Under the pieces are notes generated by a model. The model did no database searches, was not told where the DNA came from, and worked only from the letters and a program-made list of their open reading frames with translations. 64,000 nucleotides of DNA. Source: Xanthomonas sp. AM6 (lineage in GTDB: Bacteria > Pseudomonadota > Gammaproteobacteria > Xanthomonadales > Xanthomonadaceae). Made by a program: the position numbers and the translations under genes. The stretch lies in the NCBI RefSeq assembly GCF_025665335.1, contig NZ_CP106869.1:2878501-2942500 (forward strand), read 5' to 3'. Each line of letters opens with the position of its first letter. Position 1 is the stretch's first letter. Of this stretch, positions 14,331-33,167 are shown piece by piece.

Positions 14331-14740
14331 GGTGCGGTATCCGGTTTCCGGCTGAGAGACGGGCTGCCGCCGGTCCCTCCCGATGGCAGTGCATACGAAT
14401 GCGGTTCGCATCGTGCCAGCGACACAGGCAACAATGGGAGCGCAATGCGGTATTCTGCCATGTAACCGTTTTCACGGGGCAACATCGATGCCTGCGAGGG
14501 CCAGCGATGCGATCCGCCAGCCGCCGCCCTCCCGGTGCGCGCACGAGCAGCGACCTGATGCTTGAGGCATTAGACAGGTATGCTCAGAGGTCTGGCAGTC
14601 GTATTCATCTCCAGGAGCGTGCGGTCCCGCTGGCGGTCGTCATCCGCTGTGCCCGCGCGCGCTGCTGGACGGATACAGGCCGGTCCCGCCGCTCGTTTAC
14701 CAACGCCACGTCACTATCTAGCCCCCAGGTGATCGACGAA
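14331..14740. promoter_or_regulatory. Divergent control region between ugpC and zwf
   Basis: 410 bases with no supported gene. It holds a 14-base LacI-type operator candidate at 14461-14474 and must contain the promoters of both ugpC (minus) and the zwf-glk-pgl run (plus). I could not fix convincing -35/-10 pairs. Confidence 0.6.
14461..14474. promoter_or_regulatory. LacI-family operator candidate (TGTAACCGTTTTCA)
   Basis: Differs by one base from the site before lacI (33154-33167) and by two from the one before the GH144-like operon (28922-28935). It lies 131 bases before the ugpC start and 267 bases before the zwf start, so it could act on either or both. Confidence 0.6.
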
Positions 14741-16204
14741 ATGTCACCCGAAACCGAAAACCGGTCGATGCACGATACCTTCCTGCTGTTTGGCGCCACC
14801 GGCGACCTGGCCCAGCGCTACCTGTTCCCGTCGCTGCTGCGCATGCTCGACGACGGTTTCCTGCCGGAGGATTTCCGCATCCGCGCGCTGGCGCTGTCGC
14901 CGCACGACACCGCCAAGTTCCACGAGATCCTCAAGCCGCGCCTGCAGGCGGCGATGCCGCAGGTCAGCGAGGCGGTGATCCAATCGCTGCTGGACCGTAC
15001 CGACTACCGCTCGGTGGACCTGCGCAACGCCGAGTCGGTGGCCGACGCGGTGCGCGAGCTGGCCTCGCGCAAGTGCGTCAGCTACCTGGCGATCCCGCCG
15101 GGGCTGTACATCAGCACCTGCCAGGGCCTGGCCCTGGGCGGCGCGCTGGCCGCGCCGAACCGGCTGATGCTGGAGAAGCCGATCGGCCACGACTCGGCCA
15201 GCGCGCGCGAGATCCTGCAGGCGATCGGCGCGCTGATCGACGAGGATCGCGTGTTCCGCCTGGACCACTACCTGGGCAAGGCCGCGGTGCAGAACCTGAT
15301 CGCGCTGCGCTTCGGCAACACGCTGCTGGAAGCGGTGTGGAACCGCAACTACATCGAATCGGTGGAGATCCTGGTCGCCGAGAGCGAGGGCGTGGACGGC
15401 CGCGACGCCTACTACGCGCGTTCCGGCGCGCTGCGCGACATGGTCCAGAGCCACATCCTGCAGCTGCTGTGCCTGGTGGCGATGGAGCCGCCGGCCTCGC
15501 TGGAAGCGGACCGCATCCGCGACGAGAAGGTCAAGGTGCTGCGCGCGCTGCGTCCGCTGCAGGCCGCGCACGCCGCGCGCGACAGCGTGCGCGGGCGCTA
15601 CACCGCCGGCACCATCAACGGCCAGCCGGCGCAGGCCTACCAGCCGCCGGAAGGCAGCGACGTGGAGACCTTCGTCGGCGTCACCGCCTACATCGACAAC
15701 TGGCGCTGGGCCGGCGTGCCGTTCCGGCTGTGCACCGGCAAGCGCCTGGCCGAGCGCACCACGCGCATCGTGGTCACGCTCAAGCCGGTCACCCACTGGC
15801 TGTTCGAGCGCCCCGACGCGACCCACGTGGCGCCGAACCGGCTGACCTTCCAGCTGCAGCCGCAGGAGAACATCGAACTGGGCCTGATGAGCAGCCTGGC
15901 CGGCCCGGAATGGGGCGCGCTGGAACTGCAGCCGCTGGAGCTGGAACTGTCGGTGCCGACCGGCCTGCACCGCCGCATCGCCTACGAGCGGCTGATGCTC
16001 GACGCGCTCAACGGCAACCACGCGCTGTTCGTGCGCGACGACGAAGTGCGCGCGGCCTGGGCCTGGATCGACAGCGTCAGCGACGCCTGGGCGCAGGCGC
16101 AGCTGCCGCTGCTGCCCTACCCGGCCGGCAGCTGGGGCCCGCAGGAGGCCGAACGCTACGTGTCCGCCGACGACGCCAGCGCCGTGCAGCGGGACACGCC
16201 GTGA
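14741..16204 (+). CDS. zwf: Glucose-6-phosphate 1-dehydrogenase
   Basis: 487 residues. The N-terminal LFGATGDLAQR is the NADP-binding motif, EKPIGHD contains the substrate-phosphate Lys, and RLDHYLGKAAVQN is the G6PD active-site signature with the catalytic His. It makes 6-phosphogluconolactone and NAD(P)H, the first step into the Entner-Doudoroff and pentose-phosphate routes. Start 14741 has AGGTG nine bases upstream; a second Met at 14768 (MHDTFLLFG) is possible. The stop overlaps the glk start by four bases. Confidence 0.96.
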   Translation: MSPETENRSMHDTFLLFGATGDLAQRYLFPSLLRMLDDGFLPEDFRIRALALSPHDTAKFHEILKPRLQAAMPQVSEAVIQSLLDRTDYRSVDLRNAESVADAVRELASRKCVSYLAIPPGLYISTCQGLALGGALAAPNRLMLEKPIGHDSASAREILQAIGALIDEDRVFRLDHYLGKAAVQNLIALRFGNTLLEAVWNRNYIESVEILVAESEGVDGRDAYYARSGALRDMVQSHILQLLCLVAMEPPASLEADRIRDEKVKVLRALRPLQAAHAARDSVRGRYTAGTINGQPAQAYQPPEGSDVETFVGVTAYIDNWRWAGVPFRLCTGKRLAERTTRIVVTLKPVTHWLFERPDATHVAPNRLTFQLQPQENIELGLMSSLAGPEWGALELQPLELELSVPTGLHRRIAYERLMLDALNGNHALFVRDDEVRAAWAWIDSVSDAWAQAQLPLLPYPAGSWGPQEAERYVSADDASAVQRDTP

Positions 16205-17208
16205 GCGCGCCGCTGCGGCCGGTGCTGGTCGCCGACATCGGCGGCACCAACGCGCGCTTCGCGCTCGCCGACCTCGGCGCCTCCGCGCCGCTGCTCGACG
16301 ACAGCACCCAGACCTATGCGGTGGTGGATTTCCCGTCGCTGGGCGACGCGGCGCGCCACTACCTGCAGCAGACCGGCGTGGACGCGCGCAGCGGCGTGTT
16401 CGCGGTGGCCGGGCGCGTGGACGGCGACGAGGCGCGGATCACCAACCATCCGTGGGTGATCTCGCGCGCGCGCACCCGCGCCATGCTCGGCTTCGACGAA
16501 CTGCACCTGATCAACGACTTCGCCGCGCAGGCGATGGCGATCAGCCTGCTGCAGCCGCAGGACGTGGTCCAGGTCGGCGGCGCGGTCTGGCAGCCGGCGC
16601 CGATCGCGCAGCCGCGCAACTACGCGGTGATCGGCCCGGGCACCGGCCTGGGCGTGGGCGGCCTGCTGATCCGCGGCGGCCGCTGCTTCCCGCTGGAGAC
16701 CGAGGGCGGCCACGTCAGCTTCCCGCCGGGCACGCCGGAGGAGATCCGCATCCTGGAACTGCTGTCGCAGCAGTTCGGCCGCGTCTCCAACGAGCGCCTG
16801 ATCTGCGGCCCCGGCCTGGTCAACATCCATCGCGCGCTCAGCGAGATCGCCGGCGACGATCCGGGCCCGCTGCAGCCGGCCGACATCACCGCGCGCGCCG
16901 CGCAGAACGATTACCGCGCGATGCGCACGATCGACGTGTTCTGCGCGGTGTTCGGCGCCATCGCCGGCGACCTGGTGCTGATGCACGGCGCCTGGGACGG
17001 CGTGTTCCTGACCGGCGGGCTGGTGCCGAAGATGCTCGACGCGCTCCAGCATTCCGGCTTCCGCCAGCGCTTCGAGCACAAGGGCCGGTTTTCGTCGATC
17101 ATGGCGCGGGTGCCGTCGCTGGCGGTGACCCACCCACGCCCCGGCCTGCTCGGTGCCGCGGCCTACGCGGTCGATGCCGAGCGCGAATCCCCAGGAGTCG
17201 TCGCATGA
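16201..17208 (+). CDS. glk: Glucokinase (bacterial Glk family)
   Basis: 335 residues. ADIGGTNARFAL at the N-terminus is the phosphate-1 motif, PGTGLGVGGL binds ATP, and LETEGGHVSFPP carries the catalytic region of PF02685-type glucokinases. It phosphorylates free glucose and so feeds zwf next door. Start is GTG at 16201, overlapping the zwf stop (GTGA); the stop overlaps the pgl ATG (ATGA). The three genes are therefore translationally coupled. Presence of a kinase fits a pathway starting from glucose released by hydrolysis. Confidence 0.94.
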   Translation: MSAPLRPVLVADIGGTNARFALADLGASAPLLDDSTQTYAVVDFPSLGDAARHYLQQTGVDARSGVFAVAGRVDGDEARITNHPWVISRARTRAMLGFDELHLINDFAAQAMAISLLQPQDVVQVGGAVWQPAPIAQPRNYAVIGPGTGLGVGGLLIRGGRCFPLETEGGHVSFPPGTPEEIRILELLSQQFGRVSNERLICGPGLVNIHRALSEIAGDDPGPLQPADITARAAQNDYRAMRTIDVFCAVFGAIAGDLVLMHGAWDGVFLTGGLVPKMLDALQHSGFRQRFEHKGRFSSIMARVPSLAVTHPRPGLLGAAAYAVDAERESPGVVA

Positions 17209-17924
17209 ACCCCACGCTGTCCGATCGCATCACCCTGGTCCGCTACGACGATCCCGACGAATGGATCGACGCGGCGGCGGCCGAGATCGGCGACGCGCTG
17301 CGCAGGGAAATCGGACGGCGCGGCGCCGCGCGCCTGCTGCTGTCCGGCGGCACCACCCCGGCGCCGGTGTACCAGGCGCTGGCCGAACTGCCGCTGGACT
17401 GGTCGAAGCTGGAAGTGGGCCTGGTCGACGAGCGCTGGCTGTCGCCGCAGGACAGCGACAGCAACGCCTACCTGGTCCGGCAGAGTTTCCTGGAGCGTGC
17501 CGAAGGCGCGCGCTTCGAGCCGCTGGTGCGGGTCGGCAAGCCGCTGCAGGACTGCGTGCACGCCGCCAACCTGCACGCGCAGCACGCGCCGGCCGCGTGC
17601 CTGGCGGTGCTGGGCATGGGCGGCGACGGCCACACCGCCTCGCTGTTCCCCGGCGCCACCGACCTGAGCAAGGCGCTGGCCAACCCGCTGCCCTATGCCG
17701 CGCTCGACGCCACCGGCTGCCCCGGCGCCAACACCTGGCCGCTGCGCATCACCCTGACCCCGGCCGGGCTGGCGCCGATCGGCCAGCGCCTGCTGCTGTT
17801 GCGCGGCAAGCAGAAGCTGCAGGTGCTCGAGCGCGCGCTGGCCGGCAGCGATCCGCACGAATTCCCGATCCGCGTCGCGTTCGACACGCCTGGTGCGCGC
17901 TTGCGCGTGCATTGGTGCGAGTGA
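17205..17924 (+). CDS. pgl: 6-phosphogluconolactonase (DevB/Pgl family)
   Basis: 239 residues. LLLSGGTTPAPVY near residue 45 and LGMGGDGHTASLFPG near residue 140 are the two family motifs. It hydrolyses the lactone made by zwf to 6-phosphogluconate. CAGGAG lies nine bases before the ATG inside the end of glk. It is followed by a 124-base gap with one arm of the heptamer repeat before edd. Confidence 0.94.
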   Translation: MNPTLSDRITLVRYDDPDEWIDAAAAEIGDALRREIGRRGAARLLLSGGTTPAPVYQALAELPLDWSKLEVGLVDERWLSPQDSDSNAYLVRQSFLERAEGARFEPLVRVGKPLQDCVHAANLHAQHAPAACLAVLGMGGDGHTASLFPGATDLSKALANPLPYAALDATGCPGANTWPLRITLTPAGLAPIGQRLLLLRGKQKLQVLERALAGSDPHEFPIRVAFDTPGARLRVHWCE

Positions 17925-17925
17925 G

Positions 17926-17960: not shown

Positions 17961-18048
17961 CAGCCGCGTGCTGCCACCTCCCCAGTTCGTCCGGGTTCCA
18001 CGTTCCGTTATGCGACCACATCCCCACACTTCATAGCCATTTCAGCCA

Positions 18049-19965
18049 ATGAGCCTGCATCCGAAAATCCATGCTATCACCGAGCGCATCCGCGAGCGCA
18101 GTGCGCCGTCGCGGCGCGCCTACCTGGCCGGCATCGACGCCGCGCTGCGCGACGGTCCGTTCCGCGCGCGCCTGAGCTGCGGCAACCTGGCGCACGGCTT
18201 CGCCGCCTGCGGCCCGACCGACAAGAGCCGGCTGGAAGGCGGGATCACGCCGAACCTGGGCATCGTCACCGCCTACAACGACATGCTGTCGGCGCACCAG
18301 CCGTTCGAGCACTATCCGGAGATGATCCGCAGCACCGCGCGCGCGCTCGGCGCCACCGCGCAGGTCGCCGGCGGCGTGCCGGCGATGTGCGACGGCGTGA
18401 CCCAGGGCCGCCCGGGCATGGAGCTGTCGCTGTTCTCGCGCGACGTGATCGCCCAGGCCACCGCGATCGGCCTGAGCCACGACATGTTCGACACCACCCT
18501 CTACCTGGGCGTGTGCGACAAGATCGTGCCCGGCCTGCTGATCGGCGCGCTGGCCTTCGGCCACCTGCCGGCGGTGTTCGTGCCGGCCGGGCCGATGACC
18601 CCGGGCATCCCCAACAAGCAGAAGGCCGAGGTGCGCGAGCGCTACGCCGCCGGCCAGGCCACCCGCGAGGAACTGCTGGCCGCCGAATCGGCGTCCTACC
18701 ACGCGCCGGGCACCTGCACCTTCTACGGCACCGCCAATTCCAACCAGGTGCTGCTGGAAGCGATGGGCGTGCAGTTGCCGGGCGCCTCGTTCGTCAACCC
18801 GGGCACGCCGCTGCGCGACGCGCTGACCCAGCAGGCCACCGAACGCGCGCTGCGCATCACCGCGCTGGGCAGCGATTTCCGCCCGCTCGGCCGGCTGATC
18901 GACGAGCGCGCGATCGTCAACGCCGCGGTCGCGCTGATGGCCACCGGCGGTTCCACCAACCACACCATCCACTGGGTGGCGGTGGCGCGCGCGGCCGGCA
19001 TCGTGCTGACCTGGGACGACCTGGACGAACTGTCGCAGATCGTGCCGCTGCTGACCCGCGTGTATCCCAACGGCGAAGCCGACGTGAACCATTTCGCCGC
19101 GGCCGGCGGGGTCGGCTTCGTGTTCCGCGAACTGATGGACGCGGGCCTGATGCACGACGACCTGCCCACCATCGTGCCCGGCGGCATGCGCGCCTACGGC
19201 GACGAGCCGTGCGTGCAGAACGGCGCGCTGGCCTACGTGCCGAGCCCGGCCACGAGCGCCGACGAGACGGTGGTGCGCCCGGCGTCGAACCCGTTCGAGG
19301 CGCAGGGCGGGCTGCGCCTGCTGCGCGGCAATCTCGGCCGCTCGCTGATCAAGCTGTCGGCGGTGAAGCCGGAATTCCGCACCATCGAGGCGCCGGCGGT
19401 GGTGATCGACGCGCCGCAGGTGTTGAACAAGCTGCACGCCGCCGGCGTGCTGCCGCACGACTTCGTGGTGGTGCTGCGCTACCAGGGGCCGCGGGCCAAC
19501 GGCATGCCGGAACTGCATTCGCTGGCGCCGCTGCTGGGCCTGCTGCAGAACCAGGGCCGGCGCGTGGCGCTGGTCACCGACGGGCGCCTGTCCGGCGCCT
19601 CGGGCAAGTTCCCGGCGGCGATCCACGTGACCCCGGAAGCGGCGCGCGGCGGTCCGATCGCGCGCGTGCGCGAGGGCGACATCGTGCGCCTGGACGGCGA
19701 GGCCGGCACCCTGGAGGTGCTGGTGGACGCCGCCGAATGGGCGACGCGCGCGCTGGCGCCGAACACCGCGCCGGCCGCGCACGACATCGGCCGCAACCTG
19801 TTCGCGATCAATCGCCGCGTGGTCGGCCCGGCCGACCAGGGCGCGATGTCGATCTCCTGCGGCCCGCCGGCCGCCGACGGCGACGTGTGGGACTACGACG
19901 CCGAATACGACCTGGGCCGCACCAGCGAGGCCGCCGCCGCGCCGCACGAGGAAAAGGACGCCTAG
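18049..19965 (+). CDS. edd: Phosphogluconate dehydratase
   Basis: 638 residues, full length for Edd. The signature CDKIVPGLL, the [11 protein letters not shown] segment and [22 protein letters not shown] (quoted in parts: [10 protein letters not shown]) mark the IlvD/Edd family of Fe-S dehydratases. It converts 6-phosphogluconate to KDPG, the committed Entner-Doudoroff step. It lies 124 bases after pgl and 95 bases before eda on the same strand, so it probably shares the zwf transcript, possibly with an extra promoter. Confidence 0.96.
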
Positions 19966-20060: not shown

Positions 20061-20717
20061 ATGACGATTGCCGAACACCAGAACACCGCCGAAGCGCTGC
20101 TGCGCGCCGCCGGCATCCTGCCGGTTGTCACCGTCCACACCCTGGACGAGGCGCGCCGCGTCTCCGCCGCGCTGCTCGAAGGCGGCCTGCCCGCGATCGA
20201 GCTGACCCTGCGCACGCCGGTGGCGATGGACGCGCTGGCGATGCTCAAGCGCGAGCTGCCGGACATCAAGATCGGCGCCGGCACCGTGCTCAGCGAGACC
20301 CAGCTGCAGCAGTCGATCGACGCCGGCGCCGACTTCATCGTCACCCCGGGCACGCCGCCGGCGCTGGCCGACGCATTGGCGCGGGCGCCGCTGCCGGTGG
20401 TGCCGGGCGCGGCCACCCCGACCGAGCTGCTGGCGCTGATGGCGCGCGGCTTCCGCGTATGCAAGCTGTTCCCGGCCTCGGCGGTCGGCGGCCTGGCCAT
20501 GCTCAAGGGCCTGGCCGGCCCGCTGGCGGAGCTGAAGCTGTGCCCCACCGGCGGCATCGGCGAAAGCACCGCCGCCGAGTACCTGGCGCAGCCGAACGTG
20601 GTCTGCATCGGCGGCTCGTGGATGGTGCCCAAGGACTGGCTGGCCAACGGCGAGTGGGACAAAGTGCGGGAGAGCGCGGCGAAGGCGGCGGAGATCGTGC
20701 GCGGGATTAGGGATTAG
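20061..20717 (+). CDS. eda: KDPG/KHG aldolase
   Basis: 218 residues. Glu47 in PAIELTLRTP, Arg51 in the same motif and the Schiff-base Lys135 in VCKLFPAS are all present. It splits KDPG to pyruvate and glyceraldehyde-3-phosphate. ATG at 20061. The last residues (RGIRD) and the TAG stop are encoded by a GGGATTA heptamer repeat, so the natural 3' end appears to have been replaced or extended by the repeat. A perfect terminator follows at once. Confidence 0.95.
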   Translation: MTIAEHQNTAEALLRAAGILPVVTVHTLDEARRVSAALLEGGLPAIELTLRTPVAMDALAMLKRELPDIKIGAGTVLSETQLQQSIDAGADFIVTPGTPPALADALARAPLPVVPGAATPTELLALMARGFRVCKLFPASAVGGLAMLKGLAGPLAELKLCPTGGIGESTAAEYLAQPNVVCIGGSWMVPKDWLANGEWDKVRESAAKAAEIVRGIRD

Positions 20718-20929: not shown

Positions 20930-23900
20930 TCACCGCACCTCGACCTGCACATCCGCCGGCAGCGACCGGATCCGCAGTTCGCCGTGTTCCCACTGCGCCG
21001 CTTCGCCGTTGATCTGGGTGCGGCCGGGTTCGTCCGGGTACGGCCACGGCAGCACCAGGCCGCCGCTGGGCACGCGCAGGCCGCCGTCGATGCTCAGGGT
21101 GAGGCGGTTCTTCTGCCGCCGCAGCTGGTAGCTCAGTTCGCCCTGCGGGGTGCGCAGGTCCTGGATCGCGATGCCCTTGCCGTCGAACCACGCCGCCGGC
21201 ACGCCGGCCGCCAGCACCAGGCTGTCGTCGACGTCGCGCGCGTAGGCGAACATGTCCAGCACCGAGCGCACGAAGTCCGAGCCCACCCAGGCATGCGGCA
21301 GGTCGCCGACGAAGAACGGCTTGCGCGGCGTGCGCGAGACCACCTCGGCCCACTGGTTCCAGGGCTGCGGGGCGCGGTCCTTGAAGAAGAACTGGGTCGC
21401 GTCCCAGGCGCGCTCGCGCCAGCCCAGGCGCACGAACGCGGCGACGTTGCGCCATTCGTACGGGGTGTAGTCCTTCCACTCGCGCTTGCCGTCGCGGCGG
21501 CTCACGAATTCGCCCCAGTAGCGCTCGAAGGTGTTGCCCAGCAGCTGCGGCGGCAGCCGTCCCTGCTCGCCGCCCGGCGCCAGCGCGATGGTGCTGGAGG
21601 TGGGGTCGAAATCGCCCAGTTCCGCCGAGCCCGGCAGGAAGTCGATGTGGTGCTGCTGGGTGGCGCTGTCCAGCGAGGCGTACAGGTCCTGGCGGAACTG
21701 GTCGCGAGAAGCGGCGAAGCGCGCCGCATCGTCGATCCGGCCCAGCTCGGCGGCGATCGCCACCGCGTCCTTGTAGCCGCGCAGCGCCCAGAAGTTGTCC
21801 CAGTACGAGTGCATCGGCTTGGCCGAATAGCCTTCGTGGCTGATCGACACCGGCATCATCCCGTAGAACGCCGGGTTGCGCGCGCGGTTGTCCTCGGTGC
21901 GCTCGCTCAGGCGCAACTGCTCCATGTACTCGTAGGCGGCCAGCACGTTCGGCCACATCTTTTCCAGGAACGCGCGGTCGCCGCTGTAGCGGTAGTAGTC
22001 GGCGATGCCGAAGATCAGCTCGCCGTGGCTGTCGTTCTCCGGCACCGGGTCGCTGCCGCGGTCGTCCACGCAGCACGGCACCATGCCGTTGGCGAACTGG
22101 TACGGCGCGTACCACTCCAGGTACTCGCGCGCCACGTCGGCGCGGCCCAGGCGCAGCAGGCCTTCGGAGATCATCGCGCCGTCGCGGATCCAGCTGCGCG
22201 AATACGAGCGCGTGCCCGGCTGCAGGCGCGGCCCGATGCGCGAGATCAGCATGTGCGCCAGCGCAGTGCGCAGCGTGTCGGCCAGCGCCTTGCCCTCGGC
22301 CGGCACGCGCAGCTGCACCCGGTCCAGTTTCTCGCGCCATTGCGCGGCCACCAGTTGCTGCGCCTTGGCCGGGTCGAAACCGGCCGGCAGCGCCTGCGCG
22401 CCGGTCTGCGGGATCAGCAACGCCACCTCGCGCGTTTCGCCCGGGGCCAGGCGCCCGCGGTACAGCAGTGCGCCGGAGGCCAGGCCGTCCGCGTCCTGCG
22501 CCTGCTGCGGCAGCGCCGCGGTGTCGGCGGCCAGCCGCTCCACGTCGATGCCGGCGTCGAACGCGGTGGCGTAGGCGGCGTCGGGTTTCTGCACCGCGAA
22601 CACGCGCGGCTCGCCGTTGACCTCCACCTGCGCGCCGTTGACCGTCAGCAAATGGATCGGGCTGGCCCCGCCGACGGTATTGAGGAACTGGCTGGGCGGG
22701 TTCACCTGGAACGGCCGCACCGCCAGCGCCAGGGTGTAGTCGTGCGGCTTCTTGCTGGGGTTGCTGAGCCGGTAGCGCGCGACCAGCTGCGCCTGCTCGG
22801 GCGTGCCCTGGACGAAGGCGGTGATGCGCAGGCCGGCATCGTCGTGGCTCCAGTCCACGCTCGGGATCGGCAGGTAGTCGTCCTGCAGGCTCTGCGCGGT
22901 CTTCACGTCGGCCCAGCTCAGGCGCTTGCCGTCCAGCAGCAGGAACGGCTCGATGCTGAAACCGCCCTTGCCGACCTCGATCGCGCCGTCCTCGCCGACC
23001 AGGCCCTGCTCGCGGCCGCCGTCCAGGCCGACGATGGTCCAGTACGGCTGCTCGCCGCTGAAGCCGCGCGGGAACCAGCCGCGGGTGGAGTCGGCCGCCA
23101 CCGACTTGACGAAATCGTTCGGGGTGGCGGCGAAGGCCAGCGGCTGCAGCGCGATGTCGGCGATGCCGTAGCGGAAGCTGGGGCCGTCCTCCAGGTCGAT
23201 GCGCACGTAGCGCGCCTCGGTCTCCGGCATCGGCAGCCAGTCGGTGCCGCCGTTGCCGGCGGTGACGCTGCGCAGGTCGCGCCAGCTGCGGCCGTCGGCC
23301 GAGCCCTGCAGCCTGTAGCGCGATGCGTACACGCCCGGCGCCCACTGCAGCTTGGCGCCGCCGAACTCGCGCACCTTGCCCAGGTCCAGCATGATGGTCT
23401 GGGTCTTGGCGTTGCCGCTGTACCACACCGTGTCCGCCTTGCCGTCGGCGATGCGCTGCTCCAGCGCCGGCGCGGTGTCGGCGCTGACCTTCACCGCCAG
23501 CGGCGAGGTGTCCTGCGGCGGCAGCGGGGTCAGCGCCAGCTGGTCGAAGCACACCGTGCCCTTGCCGCCGACCTGGTTGTAGATGGTGAACTCGATCTGC
23601 GCGCTGCGCTTGAGCTCCTTCTCCGGGCTCGGTCCCCAGGCCTTCTCGATCTGCCGTTTCTTGAAAGCGACCGCGGTCCATTGCTTGGGGAACTCGTAGC
23701 GCGGCCGGTTGACCCACCACACGTTGTCGCCGCTGGCGTCGACCAGCTTGAACTGCAGGTCGTTGCTCGGCGAATCGCCGCGCAGCTGGAACGAGAGCTG
23801 GTAGTTGTCCGGATACTCGACCGGCAGCGCGCGGCGGATGCCGGCGTAGCCGGAGACGCCGTTGAAGTCGTAGTCCAGGCAGATCGCCTTGGCGCGGCCG

Positions 23901-24091: not shown

Positions 24092-24253
24092 AGACCTCGC
24101 CCTGCTCGTCGTTGGTTTTTGCAGGAGGCTCTCGTCCCCGTTCCGGGATCGGCTCCGACGCGCGACCGGCAAGGCGTCGGGGCCCGGGCCCCTCCTACAC
24201 GTACGTCCCATCATGGCCTGCGCGCTGGCGCGCAGCGACCCAGGCGCGTTCCC

Positions 24254-25090: not shown

Positions 25091-25968
25091 ACCAGGTCCT
25101 TCTTGCGGCCGAAGCGCAACATCACGGAGGTCACTCCCAGGATGATCAGGAACAGCAGGAACGCCACCGCCGACGCGCGGCCGAGGTTCCACCACTTGAA
25201 GCCTTCCTCGAACATGAAGTACAGCACGCTGACCGTGCTCTGCAGCGGGTCGCCGCGGGTCATCACGTAGGGTTCGGCGAACAGCTGGAAGTAGCCGGAT
25301 ACGGTGATCACCCCGACCACCAGCAGCACCGGCCCCAGCATCGGCAGGGTGATGTGCAGGAACTGCCGCCACTTCGAGGCGCCGTCGATGCGCGCGGCCT
25401 CGTACAGGTCCTGCGGGATGCCCTGCAGGCCGGCCAGGAAGATCACCATGTTGTAGCCGAAGTTCTTCCATACCGCGAACAGCATGATCGTCGGCATCGC
25501 CCAGTGCGGATCGCCCAGCCAGTCGACCGGGCCGATGCCCAGGTGGCTCAGGCCGTAGTTGACCAGGCCGTAGCTGGTGTGGAACAGGTAGCGCCAGATC
25601 ACCGCCACCGCCACCAGCGTGGTCACCACCGGCGCGAACAGCGCGGTGCGGAACAGCGGCTTGAACCGCGCCACCGGCGCGTTGAGCAGCAATGCCGCGC
25701 CCAGCGAGGCGCCGATCGACAGCGGCACGCCGACGATGACGAAGTAGGTGGTGTTCCACAGCGACTTCCAGAACATCTGCGTCTGCAGCAACTCGATGTA
25801 GTTGCCGAAGCCGACGAAGCGCAGGTGGTTGCTGTCGGCCAGCGCGTACAGGTCGAAGTCGGTGACGCTCAGCGCCAGCGCCGACAGCACCGGCAGGCCG
25901 AAGAACACGCCGATCACGATCAGCGCCGGCCCGGCGAACAGCCAGCCGGCCAGGGAACCGCGCTTCAT
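25087..25968 (-). CDS. Carbohydrate ABC transporter permease, MalF type
   Basis: 293 residues with six helices and the EAA motif YEAARIDGASKWRQF. N-terminal LFAGPALIVIGVFFGLPV is typical of the MalF/UgpA side of CUT1 importers. It overlaps both the solute-binding gene upstream and the MalG-type gene downstream by four bases each, so the three are coupled. Confidence 0.92.
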   Translation of the reverse strand: MKRGSLAGWLFAGPALIVIGVFFGLPVLSALALSVTDFDLYALADSNHLRFVGFGNYIELLQTQMFWKSLWNTTYFVIVGVPLSIGASLGAALLLNAPVARFKPLFRTALFAPVVTTLVAVAVIWRYLFHTSYGLVNYGLSHLGIGPVDWLGDPHWAMPTIMLFAVWKNFGYNMVIFLAGLQGIPQDLYEAARIDGASKWRQFLHITLPMLGPVLLVVGVITVSGYFQLFAEPYVMTRGDPLQSTVSVLYFMFEEGFKWWNLGRASAVAFLLFLIILGVTSVMLRFGRKKDLV

Positions 25969-27281
25969 GGCGCCGCTCCCGCGGCCGGGGCCGTCGCCGC
26001 CGCCTGCGGATGCTGCTGCTGGTAGATCCAGCGCCGCTTCTCCAGGATCTCGTCCACGCGCTTGTCCAGGTCCTGCACCGCCTTCTCCTGGCTTTCGCCG
26101 CCGCGCACCACGCGCTCGGTGACCAGCCGCATTTCCTGCACGATGCGCTCCCATTCCAGCACCTTCGGCGCCGGCTTGACCCGCTCCAGCTGGTCGCGGA
26201 ACGCATGCGCCAGCGGATCGTTGGCCAGCGACGGATACGCCCAGGTGCTGCGCCGCGGCGGCATGTCGCCGATCAGCGCATGGAAGCGCGCCTGCGTCTG
26301 CGGCCGCGACAGGAACTCGATCAGCTTCCAGGCCGCGTCCTTCTGCTGCGACTTGCGGAAGATCACCAGGCTGGTGCCGCCGGCGATGCCGGCGCCCGGA
26401 CCGTCCGGGCCCGGCAGCGGCATCGTGCCCCACTGCCCTTTCAGCGCGGCCGGCTCCAGCTTGCGGAACTCGCGGATGTTCCACGGCCCGGAGATGTAGA
26501 ACGCGTAGAAGCCGTTGAAGAACTCGTCCCAGACGTTGGAGATCTGGGTCTCGGACATCTTCGGCGCCCAGTCCTGCTCGAACATGTTGGCGTAGAAGCC
26601 CAGCGCCTTGCGGAAGCCCGGGCTGCGGAAGTTGCCGTAGTTGTTGTGGTCGCGCAGCAGCGGATCGTCCAGCTGCAGGCCCAGCGACAGCTGCTGCTCG
26701 AACTCGTTGATCGGCATCAGGATCGCGTAGCGCTTGGGCCCCACGTGCCGCTTCACCGCGGCCATGGCCTGTTCCCACTCGGCCCAGGTCTGCGGCAACT
26801 TCTCCACGCCGGCGTCCCTGAGCATGTCCTTGCGGTAGAACAGCAGGCGCGTGTCCACGTACCACGGCACCCCGTACAGCTGGCCGTCGATGACGCTGGT
26901 GTCCCAGATGCCGGCGAAGTAGTCCTTCGGATCGACCACCTTGGACTGGTCGACGTAGGGCTGCAGCGGCTGCAGCGTGTCCAACGCGGCGAATTCGGGG
27001 ATCCAGGTGTTGCCGAGCTGGCACACGTCCGGCAGGCCGTCGGCGGCGAAGGCGGTCAGCAGCTTCTCGTGCGCGGCGGTCCACGGGATGTTCTGGATGT
27101 CCACGCGGATGCCGGGGTTCTCCTTCTCGAACTCGGGGATCAGCTCGGCCACCACCTCGGCCTCGCGGCCCATCGCCCAGAACCGCACCACCTCGCCCTG
27201 CGGCGCGCGCGCGCAGCCGCACAGGGCCAGCATCAGCATGCCCAGCAGCAGCCAGCGACGGGTCATCGGCGATGCGCTCAT
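25965..27281 (-). CDS. Sugar ABC transporter solute-binding lipoprotein
   Basis: 438 residues. Lipobox LCGC puts the acylated Cys at residue 23. The rest is an extracellular solute-binding protein of the MalE/UgpB cluster: VVRFWAMG, a hinge region, and Trp-rich carbohydrate-contact segments (VPWYVDTRLLFYRKD). A short coiled-coil-like Gln/Lys-rich tail and an Ala/Pro C-terminus follow. ATG at 27281 overlaps the stop of the upstream hydrolase gene (ATGA). It should capture oligosaccharides released in the periplasm. Confidence 0.9.
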   Translation of the reverse strand: MSASPMTRRWLLLGMLMLALCGCARAPQGEVVRFWAMGREAEVVAELIPEFEKENPGIRVDIQNIPWTAAHEKLLTAFAADGLPDVCQLGNTWIPEFAALDTLQPLQPYVDQSKVVDPKDYFAGIWDTSVIDGQLYGVPWYVDTRLLFYRKDMLRDAGVEKLPQTWAEWEQAMAAVKRHVGPKRYAILMPINEFEQQLSLGLQLDDPLLRDHNNYGNFRSPGFRKALGFYANMFEQDWAPKMSETQISNVWDEFFNGFYAFYISGPWNIREFRKLEPAALKGQWGTMPLPGPDGPGAGIAGGTSLVIFRKSQQKDAAWKLIEFLSRPQTQARFHALIGDMPPRRSTWAYPSLANDPLAHAFRDQLERVKPAPKVLEWERIVQEMRLVTERVVRGGESQEKAVQDLDKRVDEILEKRRWIYQQQHPQAAATAPAAGAAP

Positions 27282-28906
27282 TCGGGCTGCTGCTGCGGTT
27301 GGCGCTGCGCGGGATTGGGCTGCGCCTCGGCGGACGCGGCGCGCGACTCGGCGATGCCCAGCGCGCGCGCGACGGCGGCCTGCTCGTCCTTCTTCGGCAG
27401 CGACTGGGTCTCCCCTTCCGGGGTCAGCCAGCCGCCGCTGAAGCCGGCGCGTTCCAGGCCGGTACGCAGGTACTTGTTCTTCTTCATCACGTTCCAGACG
27501 AACTCGTTGCGGTAGTTGGCGATCATGGTGACGATCGCGCCCTGGTCGATGCCGATGTAGTCGCCGGCCACCCAGCCGCGGTTGGGCAGCATGCGCCCGG
27601 TCTTGAGCGGGATATCGTAGTTGAAGCTGGGGTTGAACGAATCCAGGAAGCCGTAGCTGGAATAGATGTAGTCGCCGAAGCGCTTGTGCATCTCCTGGGT
27701 CGCCGGGATCACCACTTCCGGCGCGAACACGATCGAGGACACCGCCGCGGTCGGCGCGATCGTGCCGTCGTCGAAGGCCTCGAACAGCCCGGCGCCGCGG
27801 GTGCGGTAGTGGAAGAACTGGCGCTGCTCGCCGCGGTAGTCCTGGGTGGTGTTCTGCGGGCCGTCGCTGGCGGTCAGGCCCCACACGTTCTCGCCGTACT
27901 CCTTCCACTTCATCGGGTTGTCGATGGCGTACTCGCGCTGCGCCAGCGTGGCGCGGCGGCTGTTGAGGAAGTAGTCGATGCCGTGCTCGCGCATGTACTG
28001 GTCCTGGATGTCGCGGAAGTCGATCCAGACGTGGTTGTACTGGTGCGCGAACAGCGGCCCGAACGCCAGGTATTCCTGGCCGTAGTACACGCCCCAGTCC
28101 TTGTTGTAGGTGCGGGTCCACTCCAGCCACGCGTCGGGTTCCACCGGATGGGTCGGCGAGCCCAGCGCCAGCAGGTAGACCATCATGCCTTCGTTGTAGC
28201 CCATCCAGTCGTGCTGGATGAACCCGCGCTCGGGATACCAGCCCATCGTGATCAGCGGCGTGCGCTGCTGCATCCACTTCCAGTCCACGCGGCGGTACAG
28301 CGTGTCGGCGATCTGGCGGATCTCCTTCTCATCGGCGCTGTCGCCCTCGTAATAGGACTGCGCGAACAGCACGCCCATCATCAGCAGCGCGGTGTCCACG
28401 CTGGACAGTTCCACCCACTGGTCGTAGCGCAGGCCTTTCTGCATGTCCAGGAAGTGGTAGTAGAAGCCCTTGTAGCCGGCGCGGCCGGTGCGCTGCGGGC
28501 CGACCGGCACGTCGCGCAGGAAGCGCAGCGTGGTCAGGGTGCGTTGCACCGCCTGCTCGCGGCTGATCCAGCCGTTCTCGTAGCCGAGCGGATACACGGT
28601 GAGCGCAAAGCCGATGGAGGCGATGGAGGCGAACGGGCGCGACGGGTAGCGGTCCACCGCCATGCCGTTCTGCTCGTTGGTGGTGTCCCAGAAGAACTGG
28701 AAGGTGCGCCGTTCGATATCGTCGAACAGCGGCGGCAATTCGGGTTTGACCAGCTTGGGGGGCAGTTCGGCTTCGATCAGGATCACTTTCACCGGTTTCT
28801 TGTCCGCAACGGCCGGTTCCTCGGTTTTCTTGCACGACGTCAACAACACGCCGACCGCGATCGTCAGCATCAGCGAAAAGCGTACGAAAACGCGCTGCTT
28901 CATCAT
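27278..28906 (-). CDS. PF10091 glycoamylase-like lipoprotein hydrolase (GH144-like)
   Basis: 542 residues. Lipoprotein signal with LLTSC (Cys25), followed by KK rather than Asp, which favours the outer membrane. The core matches the PF10091 domain: RRTFQFFWDTTNEQNGM, DRYPSRPFASIASIGFAL, VELSSVDTALLM, GWYPERGFI. The family includes GH144 endo-beta-1,2-glucanases and relatives with other substrates, so a beta-glucan is likely but not proven. The C-terminal 20 residues are Gln/Pro-rich low complexity. It is the first gene of the operon, with a TATATT -10 box and a LacI-type operator just upstream. Confidence 0.82.
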   Translation of the reverse strand: MMKQRVFVRFSLMLTIAVGVLLTSCKKTEEPAVADKKPVKVILIEAELPPKLVKPELPPLFDDIERRTFQFFWDTTNEQNGMAVDRYPSRPFASIASIGFALTVYPLGYENGWISREQAVQRTLTTLRFLRDVPVGPQRTGRAGYKGFYYHFLDMQKGLRYDQWVELSSVDTALLMMGVLFAQSYYEGDSADEKEIRQIADTLYRRVDWKWMQQRTPLITMGWYPERGFIQHDWMGYNEGMMVYLLALGSPTHPVEPDAWLEWTRTYNKDWGVYYGQEYLAFGPLFAHQYNHVWIDFRDIQDQYMREHGIDYFLNSRRATLAQREYAIDNPMKWKEYGENVWGLTASDGPQNTTQDYRGEQRQFFHYRTRGAGLFEAFDDGTIAPTAAVSSIVFAPEVVIPATQEMHKRFGDYIYSSYGFLDSFNPSFNYDIPLKTGRMLPNRGWVAGDYIGIDQGAIVTMIANYRNEFVWNVMKKNKYLRTGLERAGFSGGWLTPEGETQSLPKKDEQAAVARALGIAESRAASAEAQPNPAQRQPQQQPE

Positions 28907-28921: not shown

Positions 28922-28935
28922 TGTAATCGTTTACA
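28922..28935. promoter_or_regulatory. LacI-family operator candidate (TGTAATCGTTTACA)
   Basis: Near-perfect palindrome around a central CG, 15 bases before the hydrolase start. On the minus strand a TATATT box (28948-28953) sits 12 bases before it, so the site would cover the transcription start, a classic repressor position. Confidence 0.72.
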
Positions 28936-29007: not shown

Positions 29008-31971
29008 TTACCAGTTCAAGCCGAAGGACAGCTTGAACGTGCGCATCGGCGAGGCCAGCACCCCGTTCGGCGTGCCGTACGACGTGTTGAGGTCGTCGAG
29101 GGTGCCGGTGGCGGTGTTGTAGTCCGCATAGTTGGTCCAGTTGAACAGGTTGATGACGTCGGCGCGCACGTTGAACTTGATGCCCGCGCCGGTATCCCAT
29201 TCCTTGTTCGCCGCCAGGCTGAATTCCTTGTAGCCCAGCGTGGAATCCGGCTTGTACTGGATGATATAGCACTGGTCGTTGCCTGCCAGGCAATTGGTGC
29301 CGTAGCGCGGGGTCTGGCTGGCCAGCGACAGCTTGCCCGACAGGGTGATGGCGTACGGCAGGTCGTAGATGCCGGTCACCACCAGGCGGTTCTTCGGGAT
29401 GCCGCCGGCCTCGCGCCAGCCGTAGCCGGCCATCGACTCCTGGTCCAACGCGTAGTGCTCGCCGTACTGGCGGTTCTCCTTGGCGTCGGAGAAGGTGTAG
29501 GCCACGGTCAGGCCCCAGCCCGACTCCTTGTCGTACGGCTTGTCCAGCTTCAGCGCCAGCTGGTTGTTGCGCGTCTCCAGGCCGTTGGTGCCCAGCACGA
29601 TCGCGTTGTAGCCGTCCGGCGAATCGGTCGGCACGCCGGAGGTGGTGCCCGGCAGGAAGAACGAGCCGTCGGCACGGCGGTTGCCGCGCAGGAACACGAA
29701 ACCGTCCTTGCTCACGATCCGGCTCAGGGTCACGTCGGTGTACCAGTCGTTGCCCCAGAAGTGCAGCATGTTGCGCATGCCGATGCTGAACTGGTCGGAG
29801 TACGGCACCTTGATGTTGTTGTCGATCAGGTAGATCTCGCGGCCGCCGCCGCCGGTGCTGGCAGCGGTCAGCGCGTCCAGGCCGGCCTGGGTGGCGTAGC
29901 TGTCGTTCCAGGCCACGCACGGGTCGCCCAGGCAGGGGTTGTTGGCGCTGTTGAAGTAGTAGCTGTAGGACCTGAAGCTGTTGTTGAGCTGCTCCAGCGC
30001 CAGGTAGTCGAAGATGTTGCGGTCGTAGGCGCGGCCGGCGCCGCCGTAGATCACGTGCGCCTGGTCGCCGGCCAGGTCGTAGGAGAAGCCCAGGCGCGGC
30101 TGCCAGGCGTCCTTGAACGCCTTGCGGTTGTTGCCGGTGCTGATGTAGTTGGCGATGTCGTAGTTGGCGTTGTTGAGGTTGCTCCAGTTCAACAGCGCGC
30201 CGGCGACGTCGGCCGGGGTGACGAAGTCGAGGAACGAGGGGGTCTTCTCGTAGTCGTAGCGCACGCCGATGTTGAGCGTCAGGTGCTCGTTGACCTCCCA
30301 GTCGTCCTGCAGGTAGATGCCGTACTGCTTGTTCTTGGACACCACCGAGCCGCCGCTGCCGGTGTCGCCCCAGCGCACCCGGTACGGCGTGTCGGTATCG
30401 GTCAGGATGTTGTAGTAGTACTGCGGATTGGCCGGATTGATCTGGGTCGAGTCAAGTTCGATGTCCTTGTACTTGAAGCCCATCTTGACGGTGTGGCTGC
30501 CGTGCCAGTCCATGCTGTTCAAGGTCAGGTCGTCCTGCAGCGTCCAGCCTTCCTGGCCCTTGTTCTGGTAGCTGCTGCCGGCGCCGGCGGTGAGGATGGT
30601 GGTCTCGTTGCCCGCCTGCGGCACGTACGACAGCACGTAGCCGCTGCCGTTGGTGAGCGGGTCCTGGGTCCAGTACGCGCTCTCGTAGCTCAGGTTCAGG
30701 TCGTTGAGGAACGCCGCGCCGGTGTACTGCCAGCGCAGGTTGGCGCGCTTCTCTTCCTGGCCGTTGGTGCTGCCGTGCTGGTAGGTGGTGGTGTCGCCGA
30801 TGTCCGACAGCTCGTCTTCCTTGCGGTACTTGGCGGACAGCTCGAACAGGTGGTTGTCGCCGATCGTCCAGTCGATCTTGCCGAAGTACAGGTCTTCCTT
30901 GAACGGGGTGCTGTAGGTGGCGACCAGCGGCTGCAGGTCGGCCGGCAGCTGGTCGACGCGGTCGGCATAGATGCCGCCCGGGATCACCGTGTTGGGCGTG
31001 GTGTATTCCTTGGCCTCGTAGGCGACGAAGAAGTGCGCGCGGTCCTGCAGGATCGGGCCGCTGAAGGTCGCCCCGTACTGGGTCTCGGAGAAATCGTCGC
31101 GCTCGCCGGCCTTGCGTTCCAGCGGGCTCTCGGCGCGCCAGTCGTCGTTGGTGGTATCCCAGAAGAAGCTGCCGTGGAAATCGTTGCCGCCGGACTTGGT
31201 CGAGGCGACGATCGCCGCGCTGCTGACCTGGTCGAACTCGGCCTTGTAGTTGGAAGTGATGACCTTGTACTCGCCGATCGCCGACTGCGGGAACGGGTTG
31301 CCGCGGCTGGAGTCCTGGCCGCTGACGCCGCCGGTCAGCACGTAGTTCTTCTGGCTGATGCCGTCGATGTAGACGTTGGTGCCGTTGGCCGAGGTCGCGC
31401 CGGAGCGCACCGAGGTGTTGCCCTTGGCGTCGCGCTGGAACTGCACGCTGGGCACGCTGTCGGCCAGCTCGAGGAAGTTGCGCGTGGCCTGCGGCAGCTT
31501 CTCGATCTGCACGTTGGAGATGTAGGTGGCGTTCTCGGAGGTGCGGGTTTCCACCAGCACCGGCGGCGCGGTGACCTGCACCGCGTCGAGCGTGGTGGCG
31601 CCCTCGCCGTTGGCGGTGGCGGCCGGCGCGGCGCCGCCGAGGTTCAGCGTCGCGGTCTGGCCGACCTGCACGGTGACGTTCTGGGTGGTGGTCTGGCCGT
31701 TGGCGGTCAGATCGATGCGGTACGCGCCCGGCGGCAGGCCGCCGACCGAATAGCTGCCGTTGCTGACCTGCACGGTGCGCGACAGGCCGGTCGCCAGGTT
31801 GGTGGCGGTGACCTGGGCCTGCGCGGCGGCGTCGGCCGAAACCTGGCCGCGGATGGTGGCGGCGGTGCTCTGCGCGAACGCCGGCGCGGCGCTCAACAGC
31901 AGGCAGCTGGCCAATGCGGTGCTGAGCAGCTTGCGGACCGGCCTAGTCGCCGTGTTGGAACGATGGTGCAT
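29008..31971 (-). CDS. TonB-dependent outer-membrane receptor with carboxypeptidase-like N-domain
   Basis: 987 residues. Signal peptide ending at AFA, then a carboxypeptidase regulatory-like domain (about 30-115), a plug (from about 130: LPQATRNFLELADSVPSV, GTNVYIDGISQ) and a 22-strand barrel ending in LSFGLNW with the terminal aromatic needed for BamA recognition. This Oar-like architecture is common in Xanthomonas receptors for plant or bacterial glycans. Start 31971 has GGAGGG close upstream; the frame to 32016 is not used. Its place between the LacI gene and the hydrolase operon suggests it imports the glycan across the outer membrane. Confidence 0.92.
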   Translation of the reverse strand: MHHRSNTATRPVRKLLSTALASCLLLSAAPAFAQSTAATIRGQVSADAAAQAQVTATNLATGLSRTVQVSNGSYSVGGLPPGAYRIDLTANGQTTTQNVTVQVGQTATLNLGGAAPAATANGEGATTLDAVQVTAPPVLVETRTSENATYISNVQIEKLPQATRNFLELADSVPSVQFQRDAKGNTSVRSGATSANGTNVYIDGISQKNYVLTGGVSGQDSSRGNPFPQSAIGEYKVITSNYKAEFDQVSSAAIVASTKSGGNDFHGSFFWDTTNDDWRAESPLERKAGERDDFSETQYGATFSGPILQDRAHFFVAYEAKEYTTPNTVIPGGIYADRVDQLPADLQPLVATYSTPFKEDLYFGKIDWTIGDNHLFELSAKYRKEDELSDIGDTTTYQHGSTNGQEEKRANLRWQYTGAAFLNDLNLSYESAYWTQDPLTNGSGYVLSYVPQAGNETTILTAGAGSSYQNKGQEGWTLQDDLTLNSMDWHGSHTVKMGFKYKDIELDSTQINPANPQYYYNILTDTDTPYRVRWGDTGSGGSVVSKNKQYGIYLQDDWEVNEHLTLNIGVRYDYEKTPSFLDFVTPADVAGALLNWSNLNNANYDIANYISTGNNRKAFKDAWQPRLGFSYDLAGDQAHVIYGGAGRAYDRNIFDYLALEQLNNSFRSYSYYFNSANNPCLGDPCVAWNDSYATQAGLDALTAASTGGGGREIYLIDNNIKVPYSDQFSIGMRNMLHFWGNDWYTDVTLSRIVSKDGFVFLRGNRRADGSFFLPGTTSGVPTDSPDGYNAIVLGTNGLETRNNQLALKLDKPYDKESGWGLTVAYTFSDAKENRQYGEHYALDQESMAGYGWREAGGIPKNRLVVTGIYDLPYAITLSGKLSLASQTPRYGTNCLAGNDQCYIIQYKPDSTLGYKEFSLAANKEWDTGAGIKFNVRADVINLFNWTNYADYNTATGTLDDLNTSYGTPNGVLASPMRTFKLSFGLNW

Positions 31972-32001
31972 GAAACCCTCCAGGTTGGTTCTTGGTGTTG
32001 T

Positions 32002-32015
32002 AGTGATTGCGTACA
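32002..32015. promoter_or_regulatory. Weak LacI-type operator candidate before the receptor gene
   Basis: AGTGATTGCGTACA matches 9 of 14 positions of the hydrolase-operon site and lies 31 bases before the receptor start. It could be a degenerate operator or chance. Confidence 0.3.
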
Positions 32016-32088
32016 CAAGGGAGAAAAGTGCAACAAGTGAAGCGTTACGAACGACAGCGACGAACAGGCGGCGACGACGTTGCGCCGC

Positions 32089-33108
32089 CTATTCCTTCCT
32101 TACGTTGATGCTCGAATCGCGCACGACCAGCAGCGGCGTCAGCGTCTGCCGATGCCCCGCGTCGCTTCCCGGCTGATCGATCAGTTGCAGCAAACGCCGC
32201 ATCGCCTGCTCGCCAAGGCCGGCGATACTCACCTGCATCGTGGTGAGAGAGGGGTGAACGAAACGCGCCAGCGGAATGTCGTCGAAGCCGGCCAGGGCGA
32301 CGTCGTCGGGCACGCGCACGCCGGCCTGGGCGAAGGCGTACAGGCAGCCGAGCGCGGTCATGTCGTTGGCGGCGAACACCGCGTCCGGCAGCGCGCCGGC
32401 CTGCAGCATCGCCTGCCCCGCCCGGTGGCCCGAGGCCTCGTCGAACTCGCCCGGGAACTCCACGCCCTCGGCCACGTCCGGATGCGCGGCGATGACGTCG
32501 CGGAACCCGCGAAGGCGCTCGCGCGCATCGAAGTTCAGTTCCGGGCCGCCGACGAAGGCGATGCGGCGATGGCCCATCGCCAGCAGGTGCTCGGTCATCG
32601 CCACCGCGCCGGCATGGTCGTCGATGCTCAGCACCGGGTAGTCGGCATCGGGCAGATGGGTGTTGATCAGCACCGTCGGCAGCGCCTGCGGCAGGTTGTC
32701 GGTGAGGAAGCCGGGACGCTCGGCGTACGGCGACAGCACCAGCAGGCCGTCCACGCGCCCGCGCATCGCGCGCAGCGCGCGGCCCTGTTCCTCGGGATCG
32801 CCGTGGTAGCTGGACACCAGCAGGTGCTGGCGGCGCGCGCGGGCGGCGCCGTCGATGCCGCGGATCAGTTCGGAGAAGAATTCGCCGTACAGGTCCGGCA
32901 GCACCACGCCGATGGTCTGGGTGCGGCGGCTGCTCAGGCTGCGCGCGGCCGCGTGCGGGCTGTAGCGCAGGCGCTCGGCCACTTCCAGCACCAGCGTGCG
33001 CACCGGCTCGGCGACGTTCTCGTGCCCGTTGAGCGCACGCGACACCGTGGCCACCGATACCCGGGCCTCGCGTGCGACATCTTTGATGGTGACCGCGCTC
33101 TTCGCCAT
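32089..33108 (-). CDS. LacI-family transcriptional regulator
   Basis: 339 residues. HTH at the N-terminus (TIKDVAREARVSVATVSRALNG, given in part) with the hinge helix YSPHAAARSLSS, then a periplasmic-binding-protein-like ligand domain (GVVLPDLYGEFFSELIRG, FAANDMTALG, FDDIPLARFVHPSLTT). It probably senses a sugar from the adjacent locus. A TGTAATCGTTTTCA site lies 46 bases before its start, suggesting autoregulation. It is followed (on the minus strand) by the receptor gene after 117 bases. Confidence 0.93.
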   Translation of the reverse strand: MAKSAVTIKDVAREARVSVATVSRALNGHENVAEPVRTLVLEVAERLRYSPHAAARSLSSRRTQTIGVVLPDLYGEFFSELIRGIDGAARARRQHLLVSSYHGDPEEQGRALRAMRGRVDGLLVLSPYAERPGFLTDNLPQALPTVLINTHLPDADYPVLSIDDHAGAVAMTEHLLAMGHRRIAFVGGPELNFDARERLRGFRDVIAAHPDVAEGVEFPGEFDEASGHRAGQAMLQAGALPDAVFAANDMTALGCLYAFAQAGVRVPDDVALAGFDDIPLARFVHPSLTTMQVSIAGLGEQAMRRLLQLIDQPGSDAGHRQTLTPLLVVRDSSINVRKE

Positions 33109-33153
33109 CGTGCCGCCCTCCGCGGCAGAGACTATTGAGAAACTGGCGCGGAC

Positions 33154-33167
33154 TGTAATCGTTTTCA
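33154..33167. promoter_or_regulatory. LacI-family operator candidate (TGTAATCGTTTTCA)
   Basis: One base from the hydrolase-operon operator. It lies 46 bases before the lacI start, fitting negative autoregulation. Confidence 0.65.

Follow-up and report, generated by a model that had tools for sequence, protein, structure and literature searches.

Does a repressor encoded beside a glycan-uptake locus also govern a central pathway of glucose catabolism? This question is raised by a 64,000-nucleotide stretch of Xanthomonas sp. AM6 (contig NZ_CP106869.1, positions 2,878,501 to 2,942,500; referred to as the window), which contains a gene for a LacI-family repressor (32089 to 33108, minus strand; Pfam LacI, PF00356, and Peripla_BP_3, PF13377), a glycan-uptake locus, and the genes of the Entner-Doudoroff pathway. 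A preliminary description had placed three LacI-type operators in the window and proposed that one LacI protein controls outer membrane uptake, hydrolysis, ATP-binding cassette (ABC) import, and glucose catabolism together. The three operators were found exactly where they had been placed. TGTAACCGTTTTCA (14461 to 14474, plus strand) lies between the divergent ugpC and zwf genes; TGTAAACGATTACA (= TGTAATCGTTTACA; 28922 to 28935, minus strand) is a palindrome save for one pair, and the start codon of a GH144 gene is located 16 bases from its edge; TGAAAACGATTACA (= TGTAATCGTTTTCA; 33154 to 33167, minus strand) is located upstream of lacI, a position from which autoregulation is predicted. All three are exact matches to TGTAAYCGTTTWCA and are identical at 12 of 14 positions. 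The statement that nothing else in the window matches as well also held, as the sole further place within three mismatches (20126, inside the eda-like open reading frame [ORF]) has three. Judged from comparative sequence analysis, it is probable that LacI regulates its own gene, represses the utilization of β-1,2-glucan, and also releases the Entner-Doudoroff cluster.

Markov models of orders 0 to 3 were trained on the window itself (70% G+C) to obtain chance levels. Between 9e-6 and 7e-5 exact matches were expected per window compared to the three observed, and between 0.0007 and 0.0055 were expected per genome compared to the five observed in the 4,917,337 bases of the strain's own genome. 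With up to three mismatches on both strands, the window contained seven matches versus a shuffle mean of 1.13, a number reached in 1 of 100 shuffles. The two exact copies outside the window are located at genome position 122180, before a DUF2628 gene, and at 2154275, before a DUF3829 gene. Two one-mismatch sites (3096340 and 4109058) lie, by eye, beside a tRNA-like stretch and before an unclear ORF, and the reversed pattern was absent from the genome at up to one mismatch. The operator form, TGTAAYC/GTTTWCA, is an even palindrome with a central CG positioned upstream of the putative targets, as described generally for LacI-family operators (PMC4052901). For relatives, we used the looser pattern TGNAANCGNTTNCA, which is generic and matched 16 places of the own genome compared to 1 for its reverse; the 11 places of this pattern that remain may be used by other LacI-family proteins, and the one at 4812457 lies at the locus of a LacI paralogue.

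Within the genus, the site and LacI occurred together. Exact matches to TGTAAYCGTTTWCA were present in 18 of 20 genomes, and the reversed-pattern control gave none in any of the 20. The same 18 genomes encode a LacI orthologue (at least 90% identity), while the other two (G001 and G013) hold only a paralogue of 60 to 61% identity. As determined by tblastn on fetched loci, an exact site lies beside ugpC-zwf in 14 genomes, the strain's own included; in four genomes (G005, G015, G017, and G018), the identical 14-mer lies 19 to 22 kb from another exact site, at a locus outside the fetched set, and in G019 the only exact match is that at zwf. A TGNAANCGNTTNCA site precedes the GH144 gene in all 18 LacI-bearing genomes and in neither of the two without LacI. 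The latter two carry no exact site, although the paralogue, the GH144 gene, and zwf have been kept; their zwf sites read TGTAACCGTTTCCA (G001) and TGCAACCGTTTCCA (G013), a drift of one and two bases, respectively, and lacI, nearly all of the receptor gene, and the GH144 promoter are gone from both.

These two genomes bear on the alternative that the operators are real but are served mainly by the LacI paralogue or are shared by both proteins. In the strain's own genome, the paralogue (4808215 to 4809210) is 63% identical to LacI, possesses the same recognition helix (SVATVSR), and adjoins its own TonB receptor gene and a copy (34% identity) of the last gene of the window's operon. In contrast, the two congeners that have only the paralogue lack exact sites, and three of four paralogue loci (L041, L060, and L252; not L253) carry another palindrome, TGTAACCGCTTGCA, which differs at two positions. 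In addition, of the 63 family genomes that gave a LacI match (E ≤ 1e-60), 52 gave no second one. The paralogue as sole regulator was set aside because of the paralogue-only congeners without exact sites and its own palindrome, and a leading or shared role of this protein appears improbable.

At the level of the family, the threshold for a LacI-like match was an E value of ≤1e-60, at which some matches may represent paralogues. A match was obtained in 63 of 119 family genomes, and TGTAANCGNTTNCA was found in 69. Both were present in 62 genomes, LacI only in one (G072), the site only in seven, and neither in 49, which corresponds to a co-occurrence of 62/63 compared to 7/56 (Fisher p = 1.4e-24, relatedness ignored). 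We fetched 20 stretches around LacI-like genes, 18 from other genera and 2 representing paralogue loci. In 15 of the 18, lacI, the receptor gene, the GH144 gene, both permease genes, and the last gene of the operon occur together, and L045 is arranged likewise minus the receptor; the permeases are not in view in L046, and lacI alone is in view in L055. All 18 stretches carry a site before lacI, and a second site precedes the receptor or GH144 gene in 14 of the 16 syntenic loci (not in L049 and L058), plus L046. Loci from named organisms (the best 80 of 534 confirmed, from Xanthomonas, Stenotrophomonas, Pseudoxanthomonas, and others) were scanned with the loose pattern. Counting sites up to 250 bp upstream, we found one before lacI in 80/80 (the nearest at 46 to 60 bp), before the GH144 gene in 66/76, and before the receptor gene in 11/78; the reversed pattern did not occur in the 1.16 Mb. 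The nearest named LacI relative among these best 80 of 534 is that of X. bonasiae (94%), with the strain's own record possibly excluded. The preliminary description had named missing conservation in orthologous promoters as evidence against its proposal; the sites are in fact conserved before lacI (80/80), GH144 (66/76 named loci and 18/18 genus genomes), and, as described below, between ugpC and zwf (26/31 regions).

Since the promoters of the genus are similar overall, the 14-mers might have been kept by chance or shared ancestry, merely as part of promoters that are alike in close relatives. This is opposed by the family-level alignment, in which the palindrome and TATTCTGCCA are retained between scrambled flanks, and by the reversed-pattern controls, which matched neither in the genus nor at any of the 80 named loci. 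Chance was rejected on the basis of the shuffle and Markov expectations and the absence of the reversed pattern across the 80 named loci, and we assign this explanation a negligible probability.

The site at 14461 would connect LacI to the Entner-Doudoroff branch. On one side of it, ugpC (13206 to 14330, minus strand; Pfam OB_MalK) encodes an ABC ATPase with a MalK oligonucleotide/oligosaccharide-binding (OB) fold; on the other, zwf (14741 to 16204, plus strand; Pfam G6PD_N and G6PD_C) encodes glucose-6-phosphate dehydrogenase. The plus-strand genes behind zwf comprise glk for glucokinase (16201 to 17208), which overlaps the zwf stop and has a homologue behind zwf in 35 regions of relatives, a pgl-like ORF for 6-phosphogluconolactonase (17205 to 17924), edd for 6-phosphogluconate dehydratase (18049 to 19965; Pfam ILVD_EDD_N and ILV_EDD_C), and an eda-like ORF for 2-keto-3-deoxy-6-phosphogluconate aldolase (20061 to 20717). 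The glk, pgl-like, and eda-like ORFs were assigned by reading the frames, and their names are those we presume for the three ORFs behind zwf and edd.

A TATTCT hexamer (14451 to 14456, plus strand), read by eye as −10-like, ends 4 nt before the 14461 operator toward zwf. By eye, −10-like hexamers are overlapped by the operator, or precede it, at zwf, GH144, DUF3829, and DUF2628, while none is obvious at lacI; an operator on or behind the hexamer is expected of a repressor. A consensus promoter scan of positions 14200 to 14850 returned no promoter, and none was returned at the GH144 gene either. On the zwf side, TATTCTGcCA immediately precedes the operator in most of 26 sites from relatives (21 unique). 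The longer stretch TGggcTATTCTGcCA (14445 to 14460) almost equals the operator core in conservation, and even G071 retains TATTCTGCCA, with four extra bases between it and the operator; this stretch may be more than a −10 element.

Outside the genus, 40 zwf regions were fetched (G023, with zwf distributed over two contigs, was left out), of which 35 contain zwf with at least 59% identity and 5 contain a different zwf. A divergent ugpC lies beside zwf in 31 of the 35, and 26 of these 31 carry the operator between the two genes (loose pattern). Among regions with this arrangement, the site was found in 26 of 30 with LacI and in 0 of 1 without it; the regions lacking it are from G047, G103, G128, and G028, which have LacI, and G077, which does not. 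The four regions without ugpC are also without a site (G074, which bears LacI and whose contig stops 248 bp upstream, and G126, G101, and G025, which have no LacI). The distance from the operator to the ugpC start is 59 to 133 bp in all 26 regions. The gap between site and zwf amounts to 1.4 to 1.9 kb in 12 of the 26, and the three such gaps that were translated each hold a GH1 β-glucosidase-type ORF running in the zwf direction in distant genera, one of which was confirmed by Pfam. In Pseudoxanthomonas, the operator precedes a GH3 gene in both loci read (L184 by Pfam and L189 by eye), while no β-glucosidase under an operator was identified in the own genome. The GH1 and GH3 genes under the operator in relatives, with zwf and glk behind the former, are consistent with a route that leads from β-1,2-oligosaccharide via glucose and glucose-6-phosphate into the Entner-Doudoroff pathway. 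Large distances between zwf and lacI have not led to loss of the site, as seen in G079 (about 518 kb), G016 (about 115 kb), and G035, G081, and G133 (74 to 90 kb); thus, physical linkage does not explain its conservation.

The same regions allow weighing of the possibility that LacI is limited to the local glycan locus and that the palindrome between ugpC and zwf is a similar site of another LacI-family or glucose regulator of the GluR kind. As an even palindrome with a central CG, the 14-mer core indeed conforms to the general LacI-family type (PMC4052901), and a different zwf carries TGTAATCGTTTGCA about 50 bp upstream in LacI-less G056, G112, and G086, indicating that sites of this kind at zwf can serve other regulators; the LacI-less control with ugpC beside zwf outside the genus amounts to one genome (G077, without a site). 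A separate regulator is at odds with the site being present in 26 of the 30 genomes from other genera that combine LacI with that arrangement, with the drift of the zwf site in the two LacI-less congeners, and with the GH1 β-glucosidase genes that join the zwf side in relatives. We therefore regard it as unlikely. As an observation in its own right, the different zwf (46 to 48% identity) has a LacI-type palindrome, TGTAATCGTTTGCA or TGCAAACGTTTACA, 46 to 55 bp upstream in L107, L108, L109, and L110; its carriers are the above three genomes with TGTAATCGTTTGCA, which are without this LacI, plus G031, where a LacI match exists. These palindromes hint that an independent, GluR-like protein may regulate zwf.

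The gene content of the uptake locus points to β-1,2-glucan as the substrate. The GH144 endo-β-1,2-glucanase (27278 to 28906, minus strand; Pfam Glycoamylase) is the orthologue of XCC2207 (XcSGL), to which residues 19 to 540 of 542 were matched by phmmer (PDB 8xul; E = 0). XcSGL is reported to be narrowly specific for β-1,2-glucan, and its structure has been solved (PMC12102758). Downstream on the same strand follow genes for an ABC solute-binding protein (25968 to 27266), whose nearest relative with a described ligand is Lin1841, and for two permeases with Pfam BPD_transp_1 domains (25087 to 25971, UgpA/MalF-like; 24254 to 25090, UgpE/MalG-like), for which we assume the names UgpA and UgpE. 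In the PDB, the solute-binding protein matched 3uor first (E = 3.2e-221), an entry titled merely "ABC transporter sugar binding protein," and Lin1841 second (E = 2.7e-63). We take 3uor to be MalE of X. citri; as the next solved relative is Lin1841, the maltose role may be a misnaming, which suggests that the 3uor-type binding protein is worth reexamining as a β-1,2-glucooligosaccharide binder. Lin1841 itself is a β-1,2-glucooligosaccharide-binding protein according to PMC12369401.

No ATPase gene is present within the operon, from the GH144 gene to the last hydrolase gene. UgpC is the only protein of the genome with an OB_MalK domain in a search that covered ATPases with this domain and gave matches in 10 of 14 reference genomes. 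Control of ugpC by the same operator would therefore complete the importer, and from position and this logic we infer an action of the 14461 site on both ugpC and zwf.

The last gene of the operon (20930 to 24214, minus strand) encodes a predicted secreted glycoside hydrolase of 1,094 amino acids with an F5/8C domain (Pfam) and an (alpha/alpha)6-type barrel. A PDB sequence search matched the F5/8C domain and nothing else. An AlphaFold model (residues 76 to 1094, built from 17 sequences; predicted local distance difference test score, 82.8) resembled, among the 50 Foldseek matches listed, enzymes of the β-sandwich plus (alpha/alpha)6-barrel type from the GH94, GH15, and GH116 kinds at 9 to 14% identity; matches to several families point to no substrate. 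This hydrolase is kept across relatives without belonging to a clear family, and a paralogue of 34% identity occurs in the second LacI-receptor locus bearing TGTAACCGCTTGCA (L041:9316-12030). It is a candidate for cutting an odd linkage or side groups in cyclic β-1,2-glucan.

The TonB-dependent outer membrane receptor (29008 to 31971, minus strand; Pfam TonB_dep_Rec_b-barrel and OMP_b-brl_4) is encoded downstream of lacI. In seven genus members (L220, L221, L222, L223, L224, L227, and L231), the receptor between lacI and the GH144 gene shows about 53 to 54% or 69 to 70% identity, with the C-terminal part in view, while the flanking GH144 enzyme and binding protein exceed 92%. This looks like modular swapping of the receptor.

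The two exact sites outside the window indicate that the predicted regulon is wider than first proposed. For the DUF2628 gene (133 amino acids), the distance from the beginning of the site at 122180 (L001:1501-1514) to the start codon is 31 bases; for the DUF3829 gene (329 amino acids, lipoprotein-like), with the site at 2154275 (L002:1501-1514), it is 30 bases. Several Xanthomonas genomes show the operator at the promoters of these two genes. DUF3829 homologues were found in 6 of 79 family genomes, all six with the site directly upstream (before the first gene where they are in tandem), and DUF2628 homologues were found in seven, five of them with the site.

Taken together, these data suggest the following mechanism. 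LacI would bind TGWAANCGNTTWCA-type palindromes on or just behind promoters and, as we infer, act by repression and not by activation. It would repress its own gene and, via read-through, the receptor gene; the operon for GH144 glucanase, solute-binding protein, two ABC permeases, and accessory hydrolase; the divergent ugpC/zwf-glk-pgl-edd-eda region; and the DUF3829 and DUF2628 genes. LacI would be released by a sugar that stems from β-1,2-glucan, either a sophoro-oligosaccharide or glucose, whereupon the cell would make the receptor, the glucanase, the importer, and the sole MalK-type ATPase able to drive the importer. The glucose set free would pass through glucokinase to the enzymes of the Entner-Doudoroff pathway, which would be made alongside.

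Several observations weigh against this regulon or restrict it. The zwf site of G001 is only one base off despite the loss of LacI, and the losses in G001 and G013, which look like a single shared deletion and probably are one, count as one event. In the family, the reversed TGTAANCGNTTNCA also occurs in 18 of 119 genomes and the site occurs in seven genomes without this LacI, so that a single match per genome proves little. Among the named loci, 10 of 76 lack a site before the GH144 gene and 67 of 78 lack one before the receptor gene. The zwf branch is not universal, since G047, G103, G128, and G028 have LacI and ugpC-zwf without a good site; the LacI-less control at zwf is thin, as ugpC adjoins the orthologous zwf in only one (G077) of the four genomes concerned (G077, G126, G101, and G025). 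DUF2628 genes lack the site in G088 and G020 (2/7), as do the second copies in G007 and G010, and the recognition helix shared with the paralogue makes cross-binding possible. Finally, the window contains no separate operator for the receptor gene, whose control would thus be by read-through from lacI, across a gap of 117 bp in which a terminator-like site is absent. The proposal that one LacI protein spans uptake, hydrolysis, import, and glucose catabolism is accordingly supported by site conservation and by the joint loss of LacI and site, with a reservation for the receptor.

We tentatively extend the proposal to the family, although we consider this extension doubtful. A repressor specific for a glycan, and not a general sensor of glucose or of an Entner-Doudoroff intermediate, might set Entner-Doudoroff capacity in Xanthomonadaceae and switch the single, shared MalK-type ATPase, with β-1,2-glucan as the signal, perhaps the cell's own cyclic periplasmic glucan or that of neighbors. 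In X. campestris, cyclic periplasmic glucan is described as being related to virulence (PMC11228985).

Comparison with known systems places the predicted regulon as new but of a known kind. In the literature searched, no title or abstract beginning among the matches listed describes it; RegPrecise and the supplement of PMC4052901 were outside the search, so that a database prediction may exist, and "Xanthomon" does not occur in the main text of PMC4052901, where SuxR is given as an example. SuxR of X. campestris (Blanvillain et al. 2007, PMC1790865) is likewise a LacI repressor beside a TonB receptor and a sugar importer; unlike the locus described here, it concerns sucrose and a major facilitator superfamily importer, and Entner-Doudoroff genes are not mentioned in the available text of that source. 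The clusters Lin1839-1841 of Listeria innocua and SGR_2423-2427 of Streptomyces griseus share an ABC importer with a Lin1841-like binding protein and also hold β-glucosidase, β-1,2-glucanase, or phosphorylase genes (PMC12369401). In contrast to the present locus, the words "LacI" and "regulator" are absent from the main text of PMC12369401, and neither a TonB receptor nor Entner-Doudoroff genes are mentioned in the available text of that source. XcSGL has been characterized as an enzyme, and neither a regulator nor a cellular role was found for it in the accessible parts of the literature searched. The regulon would provide both, tying XcSGL to a receptor, an importer, the missing ATPase of that importer, and central glucose catabolism, with five promoters named.

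HexR controls zwf and Entner-Doudoroff genes in many gammaproteobacteria, as reported in PMC5343134; it belongs to the RpiR family, whereas the regulator here is of the LacI family. If Entner-Doudoroff capacity is indeed set by the glycan repressor, this would represent an independent replacement of HexR-type control. A close parallel is provided by Caulobacter, for which the accessible text of Ravcheev et al. (2014, PMC4052901) gives GluR as the predicted regulator of zwf-pgl-edd-glk and of its own gene and BglR1-3 as those of β-glucoside operons. As with GluR, a LacI-family repressor is predicted at the zwf operon (the 14461 site) and at its own gene. Unlike Caulobacter, with its separate GluR and BglR paralogues, Xanthomonas would use one protein at both, together with an ABC importer and a separate ATPase gene. 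The predicted regulon would thus merge the roles of GluR and BglR in one protein and constitute a case of a local sugar repressor having captured a central pathway.

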